Shown here in pieces: positions 35,349 to 45,221 of a DNA stretch of 64,000 nucleotides. The notes below the pieces were generated by a model. It ran no database searches and had not been told where the DNA came from. It saw only the letters and a list, made by a program, of their open reading frames with translations. Source of the stretch: Erythrobacter sp. ANT-B3C2. Lineage in GTDB: Bacteria; Pseudomonadota; Alphaproteobacteria; Sphingomonadales; Sphingomonadaceae. Every line of letters begins with the position of its first letter. Position 1 is the stretch's first letter. The stretch is from NCBI GenBank assembly GCA_001683845.1, contig LXQI01000021.1:51050-115049 (forward strand), given 5' to 3'. A program made the translations under genes and the position numbers.

Positions 35349-35554
35349 GATCACCGGCTACCGTGTCGGCGGAGGAGCTTCGCAGATGGGTCGCTGGTGA
35401 GAGCGGCGACAGATCCACGGCGCGCGAACCTTGTACCATTCTATTGAATACGCTTGGTATGTTCGCACTTTGAACGCCAAGAACCTTCGCATTTGCTTGA
35501 TTTACGCGCCAGACTGTCTGTGGGAGACCAACAGATTAGGGTGGGAGAGTGGGG
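35349..35554. other. Leader region of the caspase-CHAT-STAND operon
   Basis: 206 bp between galM and the caspase gene, less GC-rich around 35430-35540. It should hold the operon promoter; no clear -35/-10 pair can be named. The ribosome site GGGAG precedes ATG 35555. Confidence 0.4.
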
Positions 35555-38500
35555 ATGTCGCGGGTTTATGCGCTCCTGGTCGGCATCAACGACTATGTTG
35601 ACGGTGTCAGCAAGTTGCATGGCTGCCTCAATGACATTGATAATGCTAGCGAATATTTGAACGAACAATGCCGGGACCCGGCTATCCTGGTGCTCAAGGA
35701 TGCCGAGGCGACCCGGGTCAACGTGATCGAGGGCATTCGCCGGCACCTGGCCCAAGCCGGTCCCGGCGACGTGGCCTATCTCCAGTTCTGCGGCCACGGA
35801 GCCCGCTCGCGATCCGCGCCCGAGTTCGGCGAATTCGACCTCGAGCGGCGCGACACCGGCCTAGTCCTCTACGACAGTCGCCGAAGCGACCAGACCTTCG
35901 ACTTGGCGGATAAGGAGCTGGCGCTGCTGATTGACGAGCTGGCGCGGCGTGGCCCGCACATCTCGCTGATGTTCGATTGCTGCCATGCGGGTTCCGGCAC
36001 CCGCAGCGACGAGGCGGACGAGGGCGTCAACGTCCGCACTGCCCGCCCTTCCCAATTCCCGCCCCGCCCGCTCGAGACCTACCTCGAAGGGCAATACAGC
36101 GCCCTGCACGCGCGCGGCGAGCTGGCGATCCCCATTGCGCCGCACATGCTGCTGGCCGCCTGCGACCGCTCCCAAACCGCCAAGGAGAGCGTCGTCGAGC
36201 ATCGCGGCTTCTACACGACCTCGTTCTACGACGTGCTGCGCAAGTCCGGCGGCACGGTGAGCTACGCCGAGCTGTTCGTGCGCGCCCGCGCGGCGGTGCG
36301 GCAGCTGGTGCGCGAACTGGGCAAGAGCGATCAGGACCCGCAATTCGAGGCGATCGGCGGCTTCGATGCCTATGCGGGATTTCTCAGCAGCGACGCAGCG
36401 AAGGCGCGGCGCCGCTACATGCTGGTGGACGCCGGGCAAGGCTGGCGGGTCGAATGCGGCGCGGTGCAGGGCCTTTCCACCGACCCGGCGCGCGCCGCTG
36501 CCTTTGCCATTTCCGCCGAGGGTGACGAGGGCGAACGGCTGGGCACGGCCCGTGTCGTCAGCGTCGGCGCACAGACCAGTGCCGTCGCGCTCGATTTCGC
36601 CGCCGACCCCGCTGTGCGCTACCAGGCGGAGGCGATCAGCATTCCCCAGCCACCGCTGATCGTCGGCTTCGCCGGCGATGAGGCGCTTCGCCCGCCTATC
36701 GAGGCAGCGCTGCGGGCCGATCCGGCCGGCACCGCCATGCTGGGCGACGGGGATGATGCTGATGATGACTTCGTCCTCACCGCCGGCAACGGAGTCGTGC
36801 GGCTGACCGAGCGCGGACGAGACGGGACGATCCGGCAGGTCCCGGTAAGCGAGGACGGTACCGGCTGGGCCGCGCCGCTGATCGCCGCGCTGGCGCATCT
36901 CGCGCAATGGCGGCGCAGCCTGGCGCTGCGCAACCCGCACCCGCAGCTTGATCCCGAACAGGTCGATCTGCTCGTCACCGAGCGGCGGCCCGGCGCCCCG
37001 GACCAGCTTCATGCTGGACCGGCGGTGACGCTGGTGGCCACCGAGACCGGGCCCAAGGGGCCGCAGGTCAAGTCGCGCCTGCAGCTGCGCAACCGCACCG
37101 GGCAGCTGCTGCATTTCGCGCTGTTCCACTTCACTGGCGAGCATGCGGTCAAGCTCCACAACAATGGCCAGATCGTCAGCGGCAAAGAGGCGATGACGAT
37201 CCTGGAGCCGCGCTTCTCGATCCCGCAGGGCACGAGCGCGACCGAGCGGCTGAAATTGATCTGCAGCACCGAGCCGATCGACGATTTCCTGCTGGTCCTG
37301 CCGCCGCTGCGCAATGATCGCGACATGGACGTGGACGAGCCCGGCGAGGCGAAGAAGCCGGTCACCGACGATTGGTTCACCCGCGATCTGACCGTTCAGG
37401 TGGTGCGCGGCGAGACCCGGATCGGCGCTGCGCCGACGACGCTGGCAGGGGGGCGCATCACCATCGCGCCGCACGCTTCGCTGAGCGCGACAGTCGCCCT
37501 GACCAGCACCGCCGGCGGCGGTTCACGCAGCGCGGGCGCCGAGGGTGCCGCCGCGCGGCTGCTGCTCGCCTCCGGCCTCCTGCCGGCTTCGCTCGACGGC
37601 GGCAGCCGAGATACCGAGGGCGCAGCCGTGCTGGTGCTTGGCGATATCGTCCATGCCGAGGCGCTGGAGGACGAGCCGCTGGCGCTGCGGCTCGATGTGC
37701 CGCTGGGCGAGCGGGAGGTGCTGGTTCCGCTGTTCCAGGCCGGTGGGCGGATGATCGTCGCCGGCGAGACCTGGCGCGATGAGGACGGGGCGACTCAGCT
37801 GCGGATCGCGCACCTTCCCAATGGCGGTGACGAGCGCAATCTCGTCCAGACCGCCAAGCTGTTCCTGTTCAAGGCGGTGCTGAATGCCGGCGATGTCGAC
37901 CTGCTGCGGCAGGTGGTGTTTTCGGAAGCGAGCCGACCGGAATGGCGCCGCTCGGGGATCGTCGAGGCGGTCGCCGCTGCCGACCGTGTCCTGCTGCTGC
38001 TCCACGGCATTGCTGGTGGCAGCGAGCCGATGGCCGCGGGAGTCCATGCGGCGGGGCTGGACGGGCAATTCGGCTGCGTGCTGGCCTATGATTACGAGAG
38101 CCTGTCGACGCCGATCGAGGACACCGCGCGATTGCTGAAGGCCGCCCTGGCCGGGGTGGGTCTGCAGGATGGCAGCGGCAAGCGGCTGACGATCCTGGCC
38201 CATTCGACCGGCGGGCTCGTCGCGCGTTGGCTGGTGGAGCGCGAGGGCGGGGCTGCGTTCATCGATCATGTGGTGCTGTGCGGTACGCCCAATGCGGGCT
38301 CGCCGCTCGGCCGGGTGGGGCAGGCGCGCAGCGTCGCGCAGATGCTGGCGACGCTGGGGCTGACGATGGGCATGCCGGTTTGCGGGCCAGTGCTGGCGGT
38401 GCTCGGCTATTCCTCGAAGCTGACGCCGAGCCTGGAGCAGACCGCCGCCAATTCCTCGCTGATGAAGGCTCTTGCGCTGAGCGAACGGCCCGCCGGCACG

Positions 38501-38767
38501 CGCTACACCATCGTGGCCGGCGATGCCTGCGACTACGAGGCGCAATCGGGCAGTGGCCTGAGCGAAGCGCTGCTGGCGGTGGGCCAGGGATCGCTGGTGG
38601 GCAGCCTGTTCAGCGGCGAGGCGAACGACATCGCGGTCGCGCGGGAAAGCGCGCACGGCGCCGGGGCGCGGGCGCTTGCCGGGGCGGAGCGGCGAGACAT
38701 CGCCTGCCATCACCTCGGCTATTTCAGCGCGCCGGAGGCACTGGGGGCGTTGAGGGCCATCGAATGA
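35555..38767 (+). CDS. Caspase-domain protein fused to an alpha/beta-hydrolase
   Basis: About 1070 aa, cytosolic. Residues 1-260 are a peptidase C14 (caspase/metacaspase) domain: MSRVYALLVGINDY, catalytic His81 in QFCGHGARSR, catalytic Cys143 in LMFDCCHAGSG. The middle (about 260-790) is unassigned, with beta-rich segments such as LLHFALFHFTGEHAVKLHNNG. From about 800 an alpha/beta-hydrolase follows: RVLLLLHGIAGG (oxyanion) and nucleophile Ser884 in LAHSTGGLVARW, like a lipase or thioesterase. ATG 35555 is preferred to GTG 35549 because GGGAG is 7 nt upstream. The stop overlaps the CHAT gene (ATGA). Likely a proteolysis-activated or protease effector; target unknown. Confidence 0.88.
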   Translation: MSRVYALLVGINDYVDGVSKLHGCLNDIDNASEYLNEQCRDPAILVLKDAEATRVNVIEGIRRHLAQAGPGDVAYLQFCGHGARSRSAPEFGEFDLERRDTGLVLYDSRRSDQTFDLADKELALLIDELARRGPHISLMFDCCHAGSGTRSDEADEGVNVRTARPSQFPPRPLETYLEGQYSALHARGELAIPIAPHMLLAACDRSQTAKESVVEHRGFYTTSFYDVLRKSGGTVSYAELFVRARAAVRQLVRELGKSDQDPQFEAIGGFDAYAGFLSSDAAKARRRYMLVDAGQGWRVECGAVQGLSTDPARAAAFAISAEGDEGERLGTARVVSVGAQTSAVALDFAADPAVRYQAEAISIPQPPLIVGFAGDEALRPPIEAALRADPAGTAMLGDGDDADDDFVLTAGNGVVRLTERGRDGTIRQVPVSEDGTGWAAPLIAALAHLAQWRRSLALRNPHPQLDPEQVDLLVTERRPGAPDQLHAGPAVTLVATETGPKGPQVKSRLQLRNRTGQLLHFALFHFTGEHAVKLHNNGQIVSGKEAMTILEPRFSIPQGTSATERLKLICSTEPIDDFLLVLPPLRNDRDMDVDEPGEAKKPVTDDWFTRDLTVQVVRGETRIGAAPTTLAGGRITIAPHASLSATVALTSTAGGGSRSAGAEGAAARLLLASGLLPASLDGGSRDTEGAAVLVLGDIVHAEALEDEPLALRLDVPLGEREVLVPLFQAGGRMIVAGETWRDEDGATQLRIAHLPNGGDERNLVQTAKLFLFKAVLNAGDVDLLRQVVFSEASRPEWRRSGIVEAVAAADRVLLLLHGIAGGSEPMAAGVHAAGLDGQFGCVLAYDYESLSTPIEDTARLLKAALAGVGLQDGSGKRLTILAHSTGGLVARWLVEREGGAAFIDHVVLCGTPNAGSPLGRVGQARSVAQMLATLGLTMGMPVCGPVLAVLGYSSKLTPSLEQTAANSSLMKALALSERPAGTRYTIVAGDACDYEAQSGSGLSEALLAVGQGSLVGSLFSGEANDIAVARESAHGAGARALAGAERRDIACHHLGYFSAPEALGALRAIE

Positions 38768-40560
38768 GTGCGGTAAGCGCCTTTGCGCCGGTCGTCCTGC
38801 TGGCCTTTGCCAACGACCAGGGCAGCTATCTCGAGAACCTGGTGCGCGAGCGAAAGGCGATCGCGGAGGGTCTCCAGCAGTTCGAGGACCAGCGCTACCT
38901 GCGCGTCCATGTCGAGCCCAATGCGGGGATCGACGATCTGTTCGCTTTGTTCGGCCGCTTCGCCAACCAGTTGGCGATCTTCCATTATGGCGGCCATGCG
39001 AACGGCTCGGCTCTGCGGCTCGAGGCGAACGGCGGTGCCAATGAGACGGCCCATGCCGGCGGGCTCGCGCAGATCCTCGGGCAATTGCGCGCGCTGAAGC
39101 TGGTGTTCCTCAACGGCTGCGCCACGCGCGACCAGGTGAAACGGCTACTCGAAGCCGGTGTGCCGGCGGTGATCGCCACCTCGGCCAAGATCGACGACAG
39201 CGCAGCCAGCAGCTTTGCCGCGCAGCTTTATGCCCGGCTGGGCGAGGGGCGCACGATCGCCGAGTCCTTCGCCGCCGCCCGCGCGGGGCTTGCCACCCGC
39301 GAGGGCGAGAGGCGCACGATCGACGCCTTTCGCGCGATGGATGTGGACGGCGAGGAATCTGCGCCGGGCAGCGATGCGCTGACCTGGGGCCTCTATACAA
39401 GGCCCGACGATGCGGGCGATGCGGCGCTCGGCTGGACGCTGCCGCAGGTCGCCGAGACAGAAGTGGTGATCGGGGCCACCCACGGCGGATTTGGCGCGCC
39501 GGCGGCCGAGCCCAATGCGGTGCTGCGTCAGACGCTGTTCAACGCGGTTGCCCGCCACAACGAGACGGTGTTCCGGCGGCTGGAGCAGGCGCGCGACAAT
39601 TCCATCGACGACGTGCGCGTGATCCCCGCCTCGATCTACGACAACATCCCCGCGCCCGTGGGCGAGCATATCCGCATGCTGTTCTCGCTAGCCGAACCGG
39701 ACCTGCAGCGGCTGCGGCAGCTGGCCCGCACCTACGAGATCGCGGCCAAATTTCTGGCGTTCGCGCTGGCTTCGCAAATCTGGAATGCGCGACTGGCGCA
39801 GCCCGGCTTCGCGCTGTCGGACATCGCGTGGGAGCAGCTCGACGCGTTCCACGCGCTCGACCCCGCGGCGGAGGCAAGTTTCGATCATCTCGGCCTCGCG
39901 CTGGCGCTGATCGCAGGGCTGGAGGAAAACGGGGTGTTCCCCTTCATGGCCGAAAGCGCCGGCTTGCCGGCCGCACTGCTGGCCCAGGAGCCGGCCGAGG
40001 CGCGTGCTTTTCTGAAGGAACTGCGCGAGCAGCTGGCGGCGGGCGATCCGCCAGTGCATGAGGTGGAGCGGCTGTGTTTCGATGGCGAACGCCACCTCGC
40101 GGCGCTGCTGGCGGAAATGGCCTTCATCGCCGGGTACAAGCTGGCGGTGGTCAAGCAGATCGCCATTACAAAGGCTCGCAACCGGCCCGCAACATACCGC
40201 CAGACGCGGGTGGAGCTCGACCAGATCTCGCTCAACATGTTCGCCGATGTGAGCCGGGAGGCCAGCGGCTTCAGCGACAACCAGGCGGTGCTGCTGTTCC
40301 GCTCGCTCGCCCATCCGGACGTGTTCCTCAACCTCACCCCGTTTCTGCTGGACCCGCTGGCGATCCGCAACCGGCCGGGTGCACAGCTGTTCTTCCTGCG
40401 ATCCTGGAGCGCCGAGCAGCAGGAGGCGACTTACCATCTGGTGGTCGACCCCACGGTCACGCTGGTCGTTTCGGGAACCTCGCCTGATCGGGACTCGGCG
40501 CTGTTCGCGCCGATCCGCGAGCAGCTGAGCGAGTTCCGGCGGGTGGTGGCGCGCCCGTGA
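38764..40560 (+). CDS. CHAT-domain (caspase-like) protease
   Basis: 598 aa. The N-terminal 230 residues are a CHAT domain: His78 in IFHYGGHANG and Cys119 in VFLNGCATRDQV form the catalytic dyad, followed by VPAVIATSAKIDDSAASSFAAQLY. The rest is alpha-helical without an identified domain (QLARTYEIAAKFLAFALASQIW) and could be an adaptor or effector-associated region. It overlaps the caspase gene by 4 nt and the STAND gene by 4 nt, so all three are one operon. CHAT proteases in other systems cut effectors after a sensor NTPase is triggered; that role is inferred here. Confidence 0.9.
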   Translation: MSAVSAFAPVVLLAFANDQGSYLENLVRERKAIAEGLQQFEDQRYLRVHVEPNAGIDDLFALFGRFANQLAIFHYGGHANGSALRLEANGGANETAHAGGLAQILGQLRALKLVFLNGCATRDQVKRLLEAGVPAVIATSAKIDDSAASSFAAQLYARLGEGRTIAESFAAARAGLATREGERRTIDAFRAMDVDGEESAPGSDALTWGLYTRPDDAGDAALGWTLPQVAETEVVIGATHGGFGAPAAEPNAVLRQTLFNAVARHNETVFRRLEQARDNSIDDVRVIPASIYDNIPAPVGEHIRMLFSLAEPDLQRLRQLARTYEIAAKFLAFALASQIWNARLAQPGFALSDIAWEQLDAFHALDPAAEASFDHLGLALALIAGLEENGVFPFMAESAGLPAALLAQEPAEARAFLKELREQLAAGDPPVHEVERLCFDGERHLAALLAEMAFIAGYKLAVVKQIAITKARNRPATYRQTRVELDQISLNMFADVSREASGFSDNQAVLLFRSLAHPDVFLNLTPFLLDPLAIRNRPGAQLFFLRSWSAEQQEATYHLVVDPTVTLVVSGTSPDRDSALFAPIREQLSEFRRVVARP

Positions 40561-41291
40561 ACCGGCCGTTCAAGTTCCTCGATGCGTTCGAGGCCGAGGA
40601 CCGTGACAGCTTCTTCGGCCGCGAACGCGAGGTCGAGGAGCTCTACGCGCTGGTGCTTGAAAGCGAGCTGACGCTGGTGTTCGGCACGTCCGGGACGGGC
40701 AAGACCAGCATCATCCAGTGCGGCCTCGCTAACCGGTTCCCCTCGACCAACTGGCACCCGATCTTCGTACGGCGCGGCGACGATCTCAATGTTGCGCTCG
40801 ACCGCGCGCTGCGCGCGCAGGGCCGCACGCCGATCCCCCCGGACGCCCCGACAAGGGAGGCGCTGCGCTCGCTTTACCTCGACATACAGCGGCCGCTCTA
40901 CCTCGTGCTCGACCAATTCGAGGAAATCTACGTGCTCGGCAGCGAGGCCGAGCAGGAGCGGTTCTACACCACTGTCTCCGAGATCCTGGCGGGGGAGGTG
41001 AGCTGCCGGATCATCATCAGCCTGCGCGAGGAATATCTCGCCGCGCTGACCCCGTTCGAGGCGGTCGTCCCACGGTTGTTCGATGCGCGGCTGCGGGTGG
41101 AGACGATGCGCCCGCGCTGTGTGATCGAGGCGATCATGGGCATGACCGCGGCCGCTGGTATCACGCTCGAACATGGCGAGGCGACCGCGCAGCTGATCGT
41201 CGACCAGCTCGATGATCAGCGCGTCGGCGTTCAGCTGACCTATCTGCAGGTCTATCTCGACGCGCTGTACCGCCGAGCCGCGCATCGATGA
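40557..41291 (+). CDS. STAND-type P-loop ATPase, C-terminally truncated
   Basis: 244 aa as it stands. Residues 1-235 are the N-terminal part of a STAND/AAA-like NTPase: FFGREREVEELY, Walker A GTSGTGKTS (43-51), Walker B LVLDQFEE (116-123), sensor stretch RIIISLREEYLAAL. Family members normally continue with winged-helix and repeat sensor regions; here the frame ends in RRAAHR and TGA at the point where the convergent TIR gene also loses its natural C-terminus. Start GTG 40557 overlaps the CHAT stop. Possibly non-functional. Confidence 0.85.
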   Translation: MNRPFKFLDAFEAEDRDSFFGREREVEELYALVLESELTLVFGTSGTGKTSIIQCGLANRFPSTNWHPIFVRRGDDLNVALDRALRAQGRTPIPPDAPTREALRSLYLDIQRPLYLVLDQFEEIYVLGSEAEQERFYTTVSEILAGEVSCRIIISLREEYLAALTPFEAVVPRLFDARLRVETMRPRCVIEAIMGMTAAAGITLEHGEATAQLIVDQLDDQRVGVQLTYLQVYLDALYRRAAHR

Positions 41292-42972
41292 TGGCGAGGC
41301 CGGTGAGGCCGAACAGGCTGCTCGGCTCGCGCGCGAAGGCCGCGCGCGCGGCCGCCGGTTCGCCCAGCATAAGCTGGCTGGAACCGATGGCGGCATGCAC
41401 GACCGAGAGCTGCGGATTGAGTGCGAGCGCCTGTTCCAGCGGCGGAATCGAAGCGGCATAGGCGCGCGCGGCATATTCGATATCGCCCTTCTGCCGAAAG
41501 ACGCGGGCATTGAGCGGATCGAGCGCGACGGCCTTGGCGATGGCGGAGCGCGCCTCCGTTGCCCGGCCGCAGCGCGCGCTGTAGAGAGCGTAGCGGGCCA
41601 GCACGTCGGCATTCCCTTGCCCAAGATCGCGCGAGCGCTCGAACGGCACGCGGGCCGCCTGTGCGTCGATTGTGCCGTTGAACAGCGCGAAGCCGAGCGC
41701 GGATTGCGTCTCCGCGCTGTCTGCCCGCAGGGCGACAGCGCGACGCGCCGCGGCGATGGCGGTTTCGTAGCGGGCCCGGCGAGTTGCGCCCTGGTCGTAC
41801 TGGTTGCCGATCACCGTCAGCGAACGCGCGCGCGCCGCATGGGCCGCGGCATAGGACGGATCGGCCTCGATCGCGCGATCGAACATCGCGAGCGCCGCCA
41901 TGTCGTCTTCCTGCTCCGCCGCGCGATTGTAGAGGTCCCGGCCGCGCAGGTAGAAATCATAGGCCTGCAGATCATCGGTGCCGACCTGCGGGCCGGCGCC
42001 ATTGTCGACGAGGCTGCGGGTGAGTTCGAGAGTGACGGTGCCGGCGATCTCGCTCTGCACCGCGAAGACATTGTCGACCGGCCGCTCAAAGGTTTGCGAC
42101 CAGCGGCTGAAGCCCGTAGCGCCCTCGATGAGTTCGGCCGAGACGCGCATGCGGTCTCCCGCCCGGCGCACGCTGCCATCGAGCAGGAACCGCACGCCCA
42201 AGGCGCGGGTAATGGTGCGGGCATCCTCGGTGCTGTCGCGGAAGCTGTTGGAGGAGGTTTGCGCGACGACCCTGAGCAGCGGATTGGCCGCGAGTTCGGT
42301 GCGCAGTTCCGCTGCCAGCCCATCGGAGAAATAGGCCTGCTCGGCCGAGCCGCTCAGATTGTCGAACGGCAGGACCGCGAGGCTGTTGTCGGTCTCCGCC
42401 GCCCCGCCCGGCCGGTTCCAGTCCAGCAGGTCCCAGTGCCAGGCACCCGCCGCCCCGGCTGCGCCTACGGCGGCAATTCCGCCGATGAGCGCGGTGCGGC
42501 GGGACAATAATGCGCCCCGCGCCGGTGCTGCTGCTGCGGGGGTCGGCAGGCGCTCCCCATCGTGTAGCGCCGCGACAGCGCGGAGCATGGCCGCGATCGC
42601 CTCCGCGCGGCCGTGCGAGAAATCGATCGTCTGGACTTGGCGGAAGCCGAGCGGCGGCGGGGTGCCATCGAGCGTGAGTGGTACGAGGCGCTGGCTGTCA
42701 CGCGCCACCCCCGCCTCGTCGCGCACCCAGTGCGATGCCACCGCGCTTTTGGACCACAGGACGATGACTGCGCGCGCGCTGGAAAGCGGAGCCTCGATCG
42801 AGCTGGCGAACACCTCGCCCCCGCCGATCATACCATCCCACCAGACCGAATAGCCCGCCCGTTCCAGAGCTTCAAGCAGCGGCGGCAGCGCCTTGCGATC
42901 GGTGCTCGAATAGCTGACGAACACGGTGGGCTCGGTCGAAGGCGCTGGTTGCACTGCCGCCGGCCCGACCAT
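41161..42972 (-). CDS. TIR-domain protein with TolB-like and TPR regions, C-terminus disrupted
   Basis: 603 aa reading frame. TIR domain at about 15-120 (TVFVSYSSTDRKALPPLLEALERAGYSVWW; candidate NADase Glu60 in SSIEAPLSSA). A membrane segment follows at 160-178 (TALIGGIAAVGAAGAAGAW), then a TolB-N/adenylate-cyclase-associated domain (NSLAVLPFDNLSGSAEQAYF, FLLDGSVRRAGDRMRVSAEL) and TPR repeats to about 555. The last about 40 residues (TARRDRPADRSAERRR...) are antisense of the STAND gene, not family sequence, so the true end is lost. Membrane-tethered signalling or defence protein; overlap with the STAND gene is 131 bp, tail to tail. Confidence 0.82.
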   Translation of the reverse strand: MVGPAAVQPAPSTEPTVFVSYSSTDRKALPPLLEALERAGYSVWWDGMIGGGEVFASSIEAPLSSARAVIVLWSKSAVASHWVRDEAGVARDSQRLVPLTLDGTPPPLGFRQVQTIDFSHGRAEAIAAMLRAVAALHDGERLPTPAAAAPARGALLSRRTALIGGIAAVGAAGAAGAWHWDLLDWNRPGGAAETDNSLAVLPFDNLSGSAEQAYFSDGLAAELRTELAANPLLRVVAQTSSNSFRDSTEDARTITRALGVRFLLDGSVRRAGDRMRVSAELIEGATGFSRWSQTFERPVDNVFAVQSEIAGTVTLELTRSLVDNGAGPQVGTDDLQAYDFYLRGRDLYNRAAEQEDDMAALAMFDRAIEADPSYAAAHAARARSLTVIGNQYDQGATRRARYETAIAAARRAVALRADSAETQSALGFALFNGTIDAQAARVPFERSRDLGQGNADVLARYALYSARCGRATEARSAIAKAVALDPLNARVFRQKGDIEYAARAYAASIPPLEQALALNPQLSVVHAAIGSSQLMLGEPAAARAAFAREPSSLFGLTGLAIIDARLGGTARRDRPADRSAERRRADHRAGRRSAARSPRHVRA

Positions 42973-43370: not shown

Positions 43371-45221
43371 GTGACCGAGCGTTTCTCCGCTTTCATCAGC
43401 TATAGTCACAGCGATGAGCCGATCGCCCGCTGGCTTCATCGCGCGATCGAAACCTACCGCTTTCCTCGCGGCATCGTCGGGCTGGAGGGTCAGTTTGGCG
43501 CAGTTCCCGGACGGCTGCCGCCGGTCTTCCGCGACCGTGAAGAACTGGCGGCCAGCGGTGATCTGGGTGCCGAATTGCGACAGGCGCTGGCGTGCTCGCG
43601 CTTCCTGATCGTGATCTGCAGCCCTCGCTCGGCACAGTCTCACTGGGTTAACGAGGAGATCCTCGCCTTCAAGCGGCAACATGGCGAAAACCGGTGCTTG
43701 GCTCTGATCGCGTCGGGCGAACCGAACGTTGGCGGCGCCCTCGAATGCTTTCCCGAGGCATTGCGGTTTCGGCTCGGCCCCGATGGGGCGCCGTCTGGCG
43801 AGCCGGCGGAACCGATCGCTGCCGACATCAGGCCCGGAAAGGATGGCAAACGGCTCGCGTCCCGAAAACTGCTGGCCGGCCTCTCCGGGGTTCGCCTCGA
43901 TGTCCTCGTGCGGCGCGATACCGTTCGTCGCCAACGGCAACTGATGTTCACGACCGCGGCAGCATCAATGGTTGCCCTGTTCACCCTCGGCCTTGCCGTT
44001 TACGCCGAAGGGCAGCGAAGAGTCGCGGTCGAACAGCGCGATCTGGCGGAGAGCAGTCTCGAGTTTCTAATCGGCACGTTCGAGGTCGCGAACCCGGCGA
44101 CGGAAAACCCGCGAACGATCACCGCCCTAACCTTTCTCGACCGGGCGAGCGAACGGGCCGTTGTCGAGTTCAGGCAGCAACCGCAGGTTGCAGCCCGGCT
44201 CCTGCGAGCCACCGGAGACATCTATTACAATCTCGGGCTGCCGCAGGAATCCGAACGTGCCCTTCTGACTGCCCTGAAGCTGGAGCCTTCCGCTGGAGCG
44301 GGACGCGCGACAACGCTCCTCAAACTGGCATCTGTCGCGAAAAGCCGCGGCGATGTGGACGCCGTGGAAAGCCTTATCGAACAAGCGGTGGCGGCGCACG
44401 ACGGGGAAAATTCGCGAAGTGCTGAGATCGAGGCGATGGTGGCCGAACAGGAAGCGCACATCGCTCATCTGAAAGCGGAGTACCCGCTGGCTGCCGAGCG
44501 CTACGCCGCGGCAGTGGTTCGCTATCAGCAACTGCCGGGCGATCATCGCGGCAAGATCGGCGAGAACCTGATGAACCAGGCCCACTCGCTGGTCCAGGCC
44601 AACGATTTTACCCAAGTCGACAGGCTTTACGAGCAGGCGCGCGACGTCTTCGTCGCCAAGTTCGGCGTGCGCGACGTGCGCACGGCCCGGTCGTTTCACA
44701 ACCAGGCCCTTGCGAACCTGTCCGCCAACCAGCCCGATGCAGCCGTGGCCGAGATGACAAGAGCCTTGAGAATTTACCAACGTGTATTGGAGCCGCGCCA
44801 CCCCAATTTCGCTGCGGCCCACTTGCTGATGGGACGCATATTATCGGGGCAAGGCCGGCACGAAGAGGCTTCGGCAAGTTTCAGCCAGGCGCGGCAGATC
44901 TTCGCGAGCCTGTATGGTGCTGACAATCCGGCCTTGGGAGATGTCGACTTCTACGCGGCCGAGGCGGAAGCAAGGGGCGGACGCTTCGACAAAGCAAAGT
45001 CCCTCGCGGCCAATGTGAAGCGGATCTATGATCTTCATTATGGCGCAGACGATCCGGATCAGGTTGCCCTGCTGTTGCTTCGTTCCCGCATCGATTGGAT
45101 GGCGGGGAATGGGGCGGCAGCCCGGCAGCGGTGCCGCAGCGCCATGGCTCTTCAGCGCAAGATCGAAAACAAACCAAACGTGATCGGTAATTTGGAGAAA
45201 CAATGTAATGAATTGACTTAG
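43371..45221 (+). CDS. TIR-domain protein with membrane helix and TPR repeats
   Basis: 616 aa. TIR domain at residues 3-170 (RFSAFISYSHSDEPIARWLHRAIE, candidate catalytic Glu68 in LGAELRQALACSRF, ICSPRSAQSHWVNEE). One membrane helix at 191-212 (LMFTTAAASMVALFTLGLAVYA). Then tetratricopeptide repeats to the C-terminus (RALLTALKLEP, AVAEMTRALRIYQRVLEPRHPNFAAAHLLMGRI). Start GTG 43371 with a weak ribosome site. Base composition is less GC-rich than the housekeeping genes, suggesting transfer. Likely a membrane-bound sensor or effector; NADase activity is possible but unproven. Confidence 0.87.
   Translation: MTERFSAFISYSHSDEPIARWLHRAIETYRFPRGIVGLEGQFGAVPGRLPPVFRDREELAASGDLGAELRQALACSRFLIVICSPRSAQSHWVNEEILAFKRQHGENRCLALIASGEPNVGGALECFPEALRFRLGPDGAPSGEPAEPIAADIRPGKDGKRLASRKLLAGLSGVRLDVLVRRDTVRRQRQLMFTTAAASMVALFTLGLAVYAEGQRRVAVEQRDLAESSLEFLIGTFEVANPATENPRTITALTFLDRASERAVVEFRQQPQVAARLLRATGDIYYNLGLPQESERALLTALKLEPSAGAGRATTLLKLASVAKSRGDVDAVESLIEQAVAAHDGENSRSAEIEAMVAEQEAHIAHLKAEYPLAAERYAAAVVRYQQLPGDHRGKIGENLMNQAHSLVQANDFTQVDRLYEQARDVFVAKFGVRDVRTARSFHNQALANLSANQPDAAVAEMTRALRIYQRVLEPRHPNFAAAHLLMGRILSGQGRHEEASASFSQARQIFASLYGADNPALGDVDFYAAEAEARGGRFDKAKSLAANVKRIYDLHYGADDPDQVALLLLRSRIDWMAGNGAAARQRCRSAMALQRKIENKPNVIGNLEKQCNELT

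Follow-up and report, generated by a model that had tools for sequence, protein, structure and literature searches.

Gene content of the locus

The window, a stretch of 64,000 nucleotides from Erythrobacter sp. ANT-B3C2, contains four genes in the order caspase, CHAT and nSTAND1, all on the forward strand, facing a TIR-TPR gene on the reverse strand. The STAND and TIR-TPR genes are incomplete, both being cut at a single junction. The first gene (35549..38767, +) encodes a protein of 1072 amino acids with a caspase domain (Peptidase C14, Pfam E 7.5e-16) and an alpha/beta-hydrolase-like domain (DUF7379, E 6e-12); the His (FCGHGA) and Cys (DCCHAG) motifs can both be read from its sequence, and its full-length alignment to relatives gives 40-48%. 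The second gene (38713..40560, +) codes for a CHAT-domain protein of 615 amino acids (Pfam CHAT E 5.9e-10), which carries the HYGGH and NGC motifs and aligns over nearly its full length in relatives. Both are still open frames and apparently complete. PADLOC assigned a caspase model (E 3.4e-32) and, weakly, TIR models, and returned no match for the CHAT protein or for the truncated STAND of the window.

A second TIR-TPR gene (43371..45221, +; 616 amino acids, complete frame; TIR_2 E 6.7e-11, TPR_12 E 5.3e-23) adjoins the damaged cassette. It lies outside the conserved cassette and has no counterpart at the relatives' cassettes that were compared. A TIR-TPR paralogue with 36% identity is located elsewhere in the same genome (G000:C13:1672-3108).

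Truncated STAND and TIR-TPR genes

The STAND gene (40557-41291, +) encodes 244 amino acids with a clear nSTAND1 match (Pfam E 1.5e-36). Its retained part (40557..41282, +), 242 family residues long, comprises the nucleotide-binding and helical domains of the NTPase core, and the Walker A (GTSGTGKTS) and Walker B (LVLDQFEE) motifs identify it as a P-loop NTPase. The match covers positions 1-240 of the 379 positions of the nSTAND1 profile, while intact relatives reach 342-343. Family similarity ends at residue 242, the second alanine of LYRRAA (41282), and is followed by two non-family codons (H and R) and a TGA stop (41283..41291, +). A winged helix and C-terminal sensor region are encoded neither in this protein nor in the next gene. 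The original prediction that family sequence ceases after LYRRA and is followed by a stop therefore agrees with both the profile and seven homologous gene pairs, and the sensor region is missing as claimed, since the profile is matched no further than position 240 of 379 and the lost part is absent from the assembly.

The TIR-TPR gene (41161-42972, -) has a frame of 603 amino acids, of which 563 residues (41284..42972, -; TIR_2 E 6.7e-21, with TPR matches) form the retained TIR, TolB-like and TPR part. The TolB-like label, given without a Pfam match, is suggested by the string LAVLPFDNLSG...YFSDGLAAEL. Compared with relatives, family similarity extends up to ...GLTGLAIIDARLG, with none beyond, and the C-terminal 85 residues of the family are gone. 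In their place stands a non-family tail of 40 codons, antisense to the STAND gene, and a stop (41161..41283, -), and the 3' ends of the two frames share 131 bp. Such antisense read-through is unremarkable: long spurious frames on the antisense strand are numerous in this GC-rich window. The predicted model of the window protein is good to about residue 565 and poor afterwards; the last ~38 residues have low confidence, with pLDDT < 50 for the greater part of 568-603. Similarity searches and model confidence thus bear out the earlier description of this frame as coherent and then running into about 40 residues of antisense STAND sequence.

Comparison with intact cassettes

STAND searches covered 100 relatives and a family sample of 400 genomes, with close matches in few of them. 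The four-gene cassette with both facing genes at full length was found in Pacificimonas pallii (G009), Allopontixanthobacter sediminis (G118) and two Erythrobacter-type MAGs (G277 and G312), and a scan of GTDB genomes, yielding 78 loci, added three further MAG loci with the convergent pair (L051, L052 and L054). The same domains in the same order and orientation as in the window are thus present in P. pallii WHA3 (L026/L055), A. sediminis (L037/L059), the Erythrobacter-type MAGs (L060 and L061) and the three additional MAGs, with protein identities of about 36-62% from gene to gene. Six of the seven loci also have caspase and CHAT genes in complete form; the exception, L054, is a short contig on which CHAT and TIR-TPR are partial and caspase is absent. 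A different arrangement occurs in Polymorphobacter arshaanensis (G007, L027), which has two CHAT-STAND units whose STANDs are long and WD40-type (1391 and 1273 amino acids), a caspase gene accompanying the first unit, and no convergent TIR-TPR gene in the stretch examined.

At the seven pair loci the STAND proteins measure 653-706 amino acids from the start of the match, and all seven TIR-TPR proteins continue exactly 85 residues further than the break in the window. Relative to these loci the window lacks 1742-1913 bp, a block that comprises the winged helix and C-terminal region of STAND, the 85 terminal residues of TIR-TPR and the space between the two genes. Aligned with intact homologues on both sides, the window is therefore the intact arrangement minus one block of 1.74-1.91 kb. 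The proposal that one deletion took both 3' ends stands; its further suggestion, that anything between them was lost as well, probably amounts to nothing, the intergenic space in relatives being 210-378 bp. In the P. pallii protein the lost STAND part includes a predicted membrane segment, RRRFILWGGVVAAICTILFFIMTTAAAFLL, read from the sequence.

An intact copy was found neither in the same species nor elsewhere in the genus, where four genomes gave no STAND or TIR match; we therefore infer the ancestral form from relatives at 50-62% protein identity in STAND and TIR-TPR. The silence of these four genomes, which gave no cassette to compare, leaves some room for the short STAND and the present TIR end to be a native, long-standing arrangement of the lineage. 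This is nevertheless very improbable: none of the relatives has the TIR end of the window, every STAND linked to such a TIR gene (7/7) is full length, the TIR end consists of antisense sequence foreign to the family, and the two genes break off at a single point.

Probable deletion junction

STAND similarity stops at about 41282 and TIR similarity starts at 41272-41284; it extends at least as far as LAII-D (41284) and may reach RLG (41272). The two ends coincide within ~12 bp, inside the interval 41,270-41,285 where both breaks had been predicted. The bases GCCGAGCCGCGC (41272..41283) are assignable to either side, so that any microhomology would not exceed about 12 bp. Such a junction is what a deletion between presumed short direct repeats could leave. 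The junction 20-mer has a single exact occurrence in the genome, and the 12-mer shows no enrichment in the window (7.5 matches expected and 11 found, allowing up to one mismatch). The junction also has a weak DNA match on contig C32; this was attributed to chance, since the gene concerned is unrelated and resembles a methyltransferase in sequence. A search around the junction for terminator-like sites was negative, which says little.

The missing STAND C-terminus was not recovered in a six-frame search of the genome assembly (G000), while the same query, taken from P. pallii, detects it in the control genomes G118, G277, G312 and G007; a frameshift in the STAND gene was rejected on the same search. 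A query with the TIR C-terminus gave only weak matches in the own genome (best E 0.013), which were taken as unrelated TPR-type sequences and not as the lost end.

Very probably, then, one deletion of about 1.8 kb turned a four-gene cassette into the allele seen at this locus. The deletion probably took place between direct repeats of at most ~12 bp and would have fused the middle of the STAND gene to the end of the TIR-TPR gene. The alternative, also raised in the original prediction, is that the pair is intact in the organism and that the intervening block was lost in assembly or through a chimeric read. The genome is a 43-contig assembly, 91% complete, and chimeric reads or a strain mixture are a possible source of the junction. 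Repeats of 12 bp or less, however, are shorter than usual assembly k-mers, so that the few shared bases at the join make repeat collapse unlikely and favour a real microhomology-type deletion. Gene order, orientation and neighbours match those of relatives, which excludes a join of unrelated loci, and no leftover of the missing STAND part lies on another contig. An assembly artefact is accordingly rather improbable, and less likely than the deletion.

Natively split STAND genes

Four Bacteroidota loci, L062, L074 (Flavilitoribacter nigricans), L088 and L125, have an ORF of its own for the STAND ATPase core; it is 246-251 amino acids long and ends at the same boundary as the 244 residues of the window. 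The split genes are located at L062:4461-6435, L074:8995-12568, L088:760-4320 and L125:8067-10054, and no convergent TIR-TPR match was found at any of them. In contrast to the window, their winged helix and sensor are encoded in an adjacent or overlapping ORF, which starts at or overlaps the stop of the core in differing relative frames. A second recurrent split, at about 350-360 amino acids near a YEL-HD-type motif, is seen at L066, L069, L075, L078, L080, L085, L086, L093 and L096, where the next ORF often begins with M(R/K)YEL. Native splitting was set aside as a refutation of the deletion, because the remainder is always encoded next door at such loci, whereas the window has no other half and its TIR gene breaks off where its STAND gene does. 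The shared boundary does make it plausible that the remnant folds as an ATPase core. That the cut falls on a boundary used elsewhere as a native gene split would also be an odd coincidence for a random deletion, and to this extent counts against one.

When the full-length Pacificimonas STAND is modelled (mean pLDDT 73, pTM 0.51), the cut falls at residue ~243, in the last turns of a helix spanning 228-245, past the NTPase and helical domains and ahead of the winged-helix region. Foldseek searches with this model retrieved ORC/Cdc6-type ATPases as the best matches, followed by the antiviral STAND proteins Avs4 (8dgf, E 2.7e-6) and Avs5 (9jap, E 2.1e-5) and the plant NLR Sr35 (7xe0, E 2.5e-4), all with low TM-scores; the sensor and effector parts of the latter three are not common to the intact STAND.

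Probable functional consequences of the proposed deletion

The truncated STAND lacks the winged helix and the C-terminal region that would hold it off and sense a trigger. By analogy with STAND proteins generally, the loss of these parts would most likely leave dead, or remove altogether, the switch meant to control the caspase and CHAT proteases; constitutive activity would be a less likely outcome. The TIR-TPR protein, without its last TPR-like helices, has probably lost normal regulation too.

Sites that are otherwise invariant deviate in 14% of cases in STAND and 12% in TIR, against 24% in CHAT and 21% in caspase. The remnants are thus no more decayed than the intact genes, which is compatible with either recent loss or retained constraint. 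Retained constraint would fit a real deletion after which the 244-residue ATPase works as a stand-alone subunit or an unregulated switch. The four Bacteroidota cores with the same boundary agree with this, as do the position of the cut at a helix end ahead of the winged-helix region, the lack of excess decay, and the conservation of all invariant alignment columns, Walker motifs included, these columns having been computed with the window included. Yet split loci always have the other half as the next gene, which is absent here, and a recent deletion would likewise show no decay, so that residual function appears unlikely. Only a slim chance is given to the more specific idea that the stand-alone ATPase core drives caspase and CHAT without winged helix or sensor as a minimal working form; if true, the deletion would reproduce the split architecture native to Bacteroidota. 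The most likely reading of the deletion is a loss-of-function scar of the ordinary kind, even if its cut sits neatly on a domain boundary.

Conflict systems related to this cassette, with caspase, CHAT, STAND and TIR domains, are described in the available text of PMC7159879 and PMC10907252. Among them, the NTP-dependent systems that Kaur et al. 2020 (PMC7159879) describe combine caspase, alpha/beta-hydrolase, TIR and STAND parts and so resemble the window cassette in their kinds of effector and switch domains. In a limited search, the exact four-gene arrangement was found neither in the accessible portions of these two papers nor in other open papers, and the four-gene unit of the intact cassette thus appears not to have been described in the open literature so searched.

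The 244-residue STAND and the present TIR-TPR end should therefore not be annotated as native, and for phage-defence tests the intact cassette of relatives is a more useful object than that of the window. As a natural lesion that parts the STAND ATPase core from the regulatory half and leaves the protease genes open, the allele of Erythrobacter sp. ANT-B3C2 would show which losses the cell tolerates.
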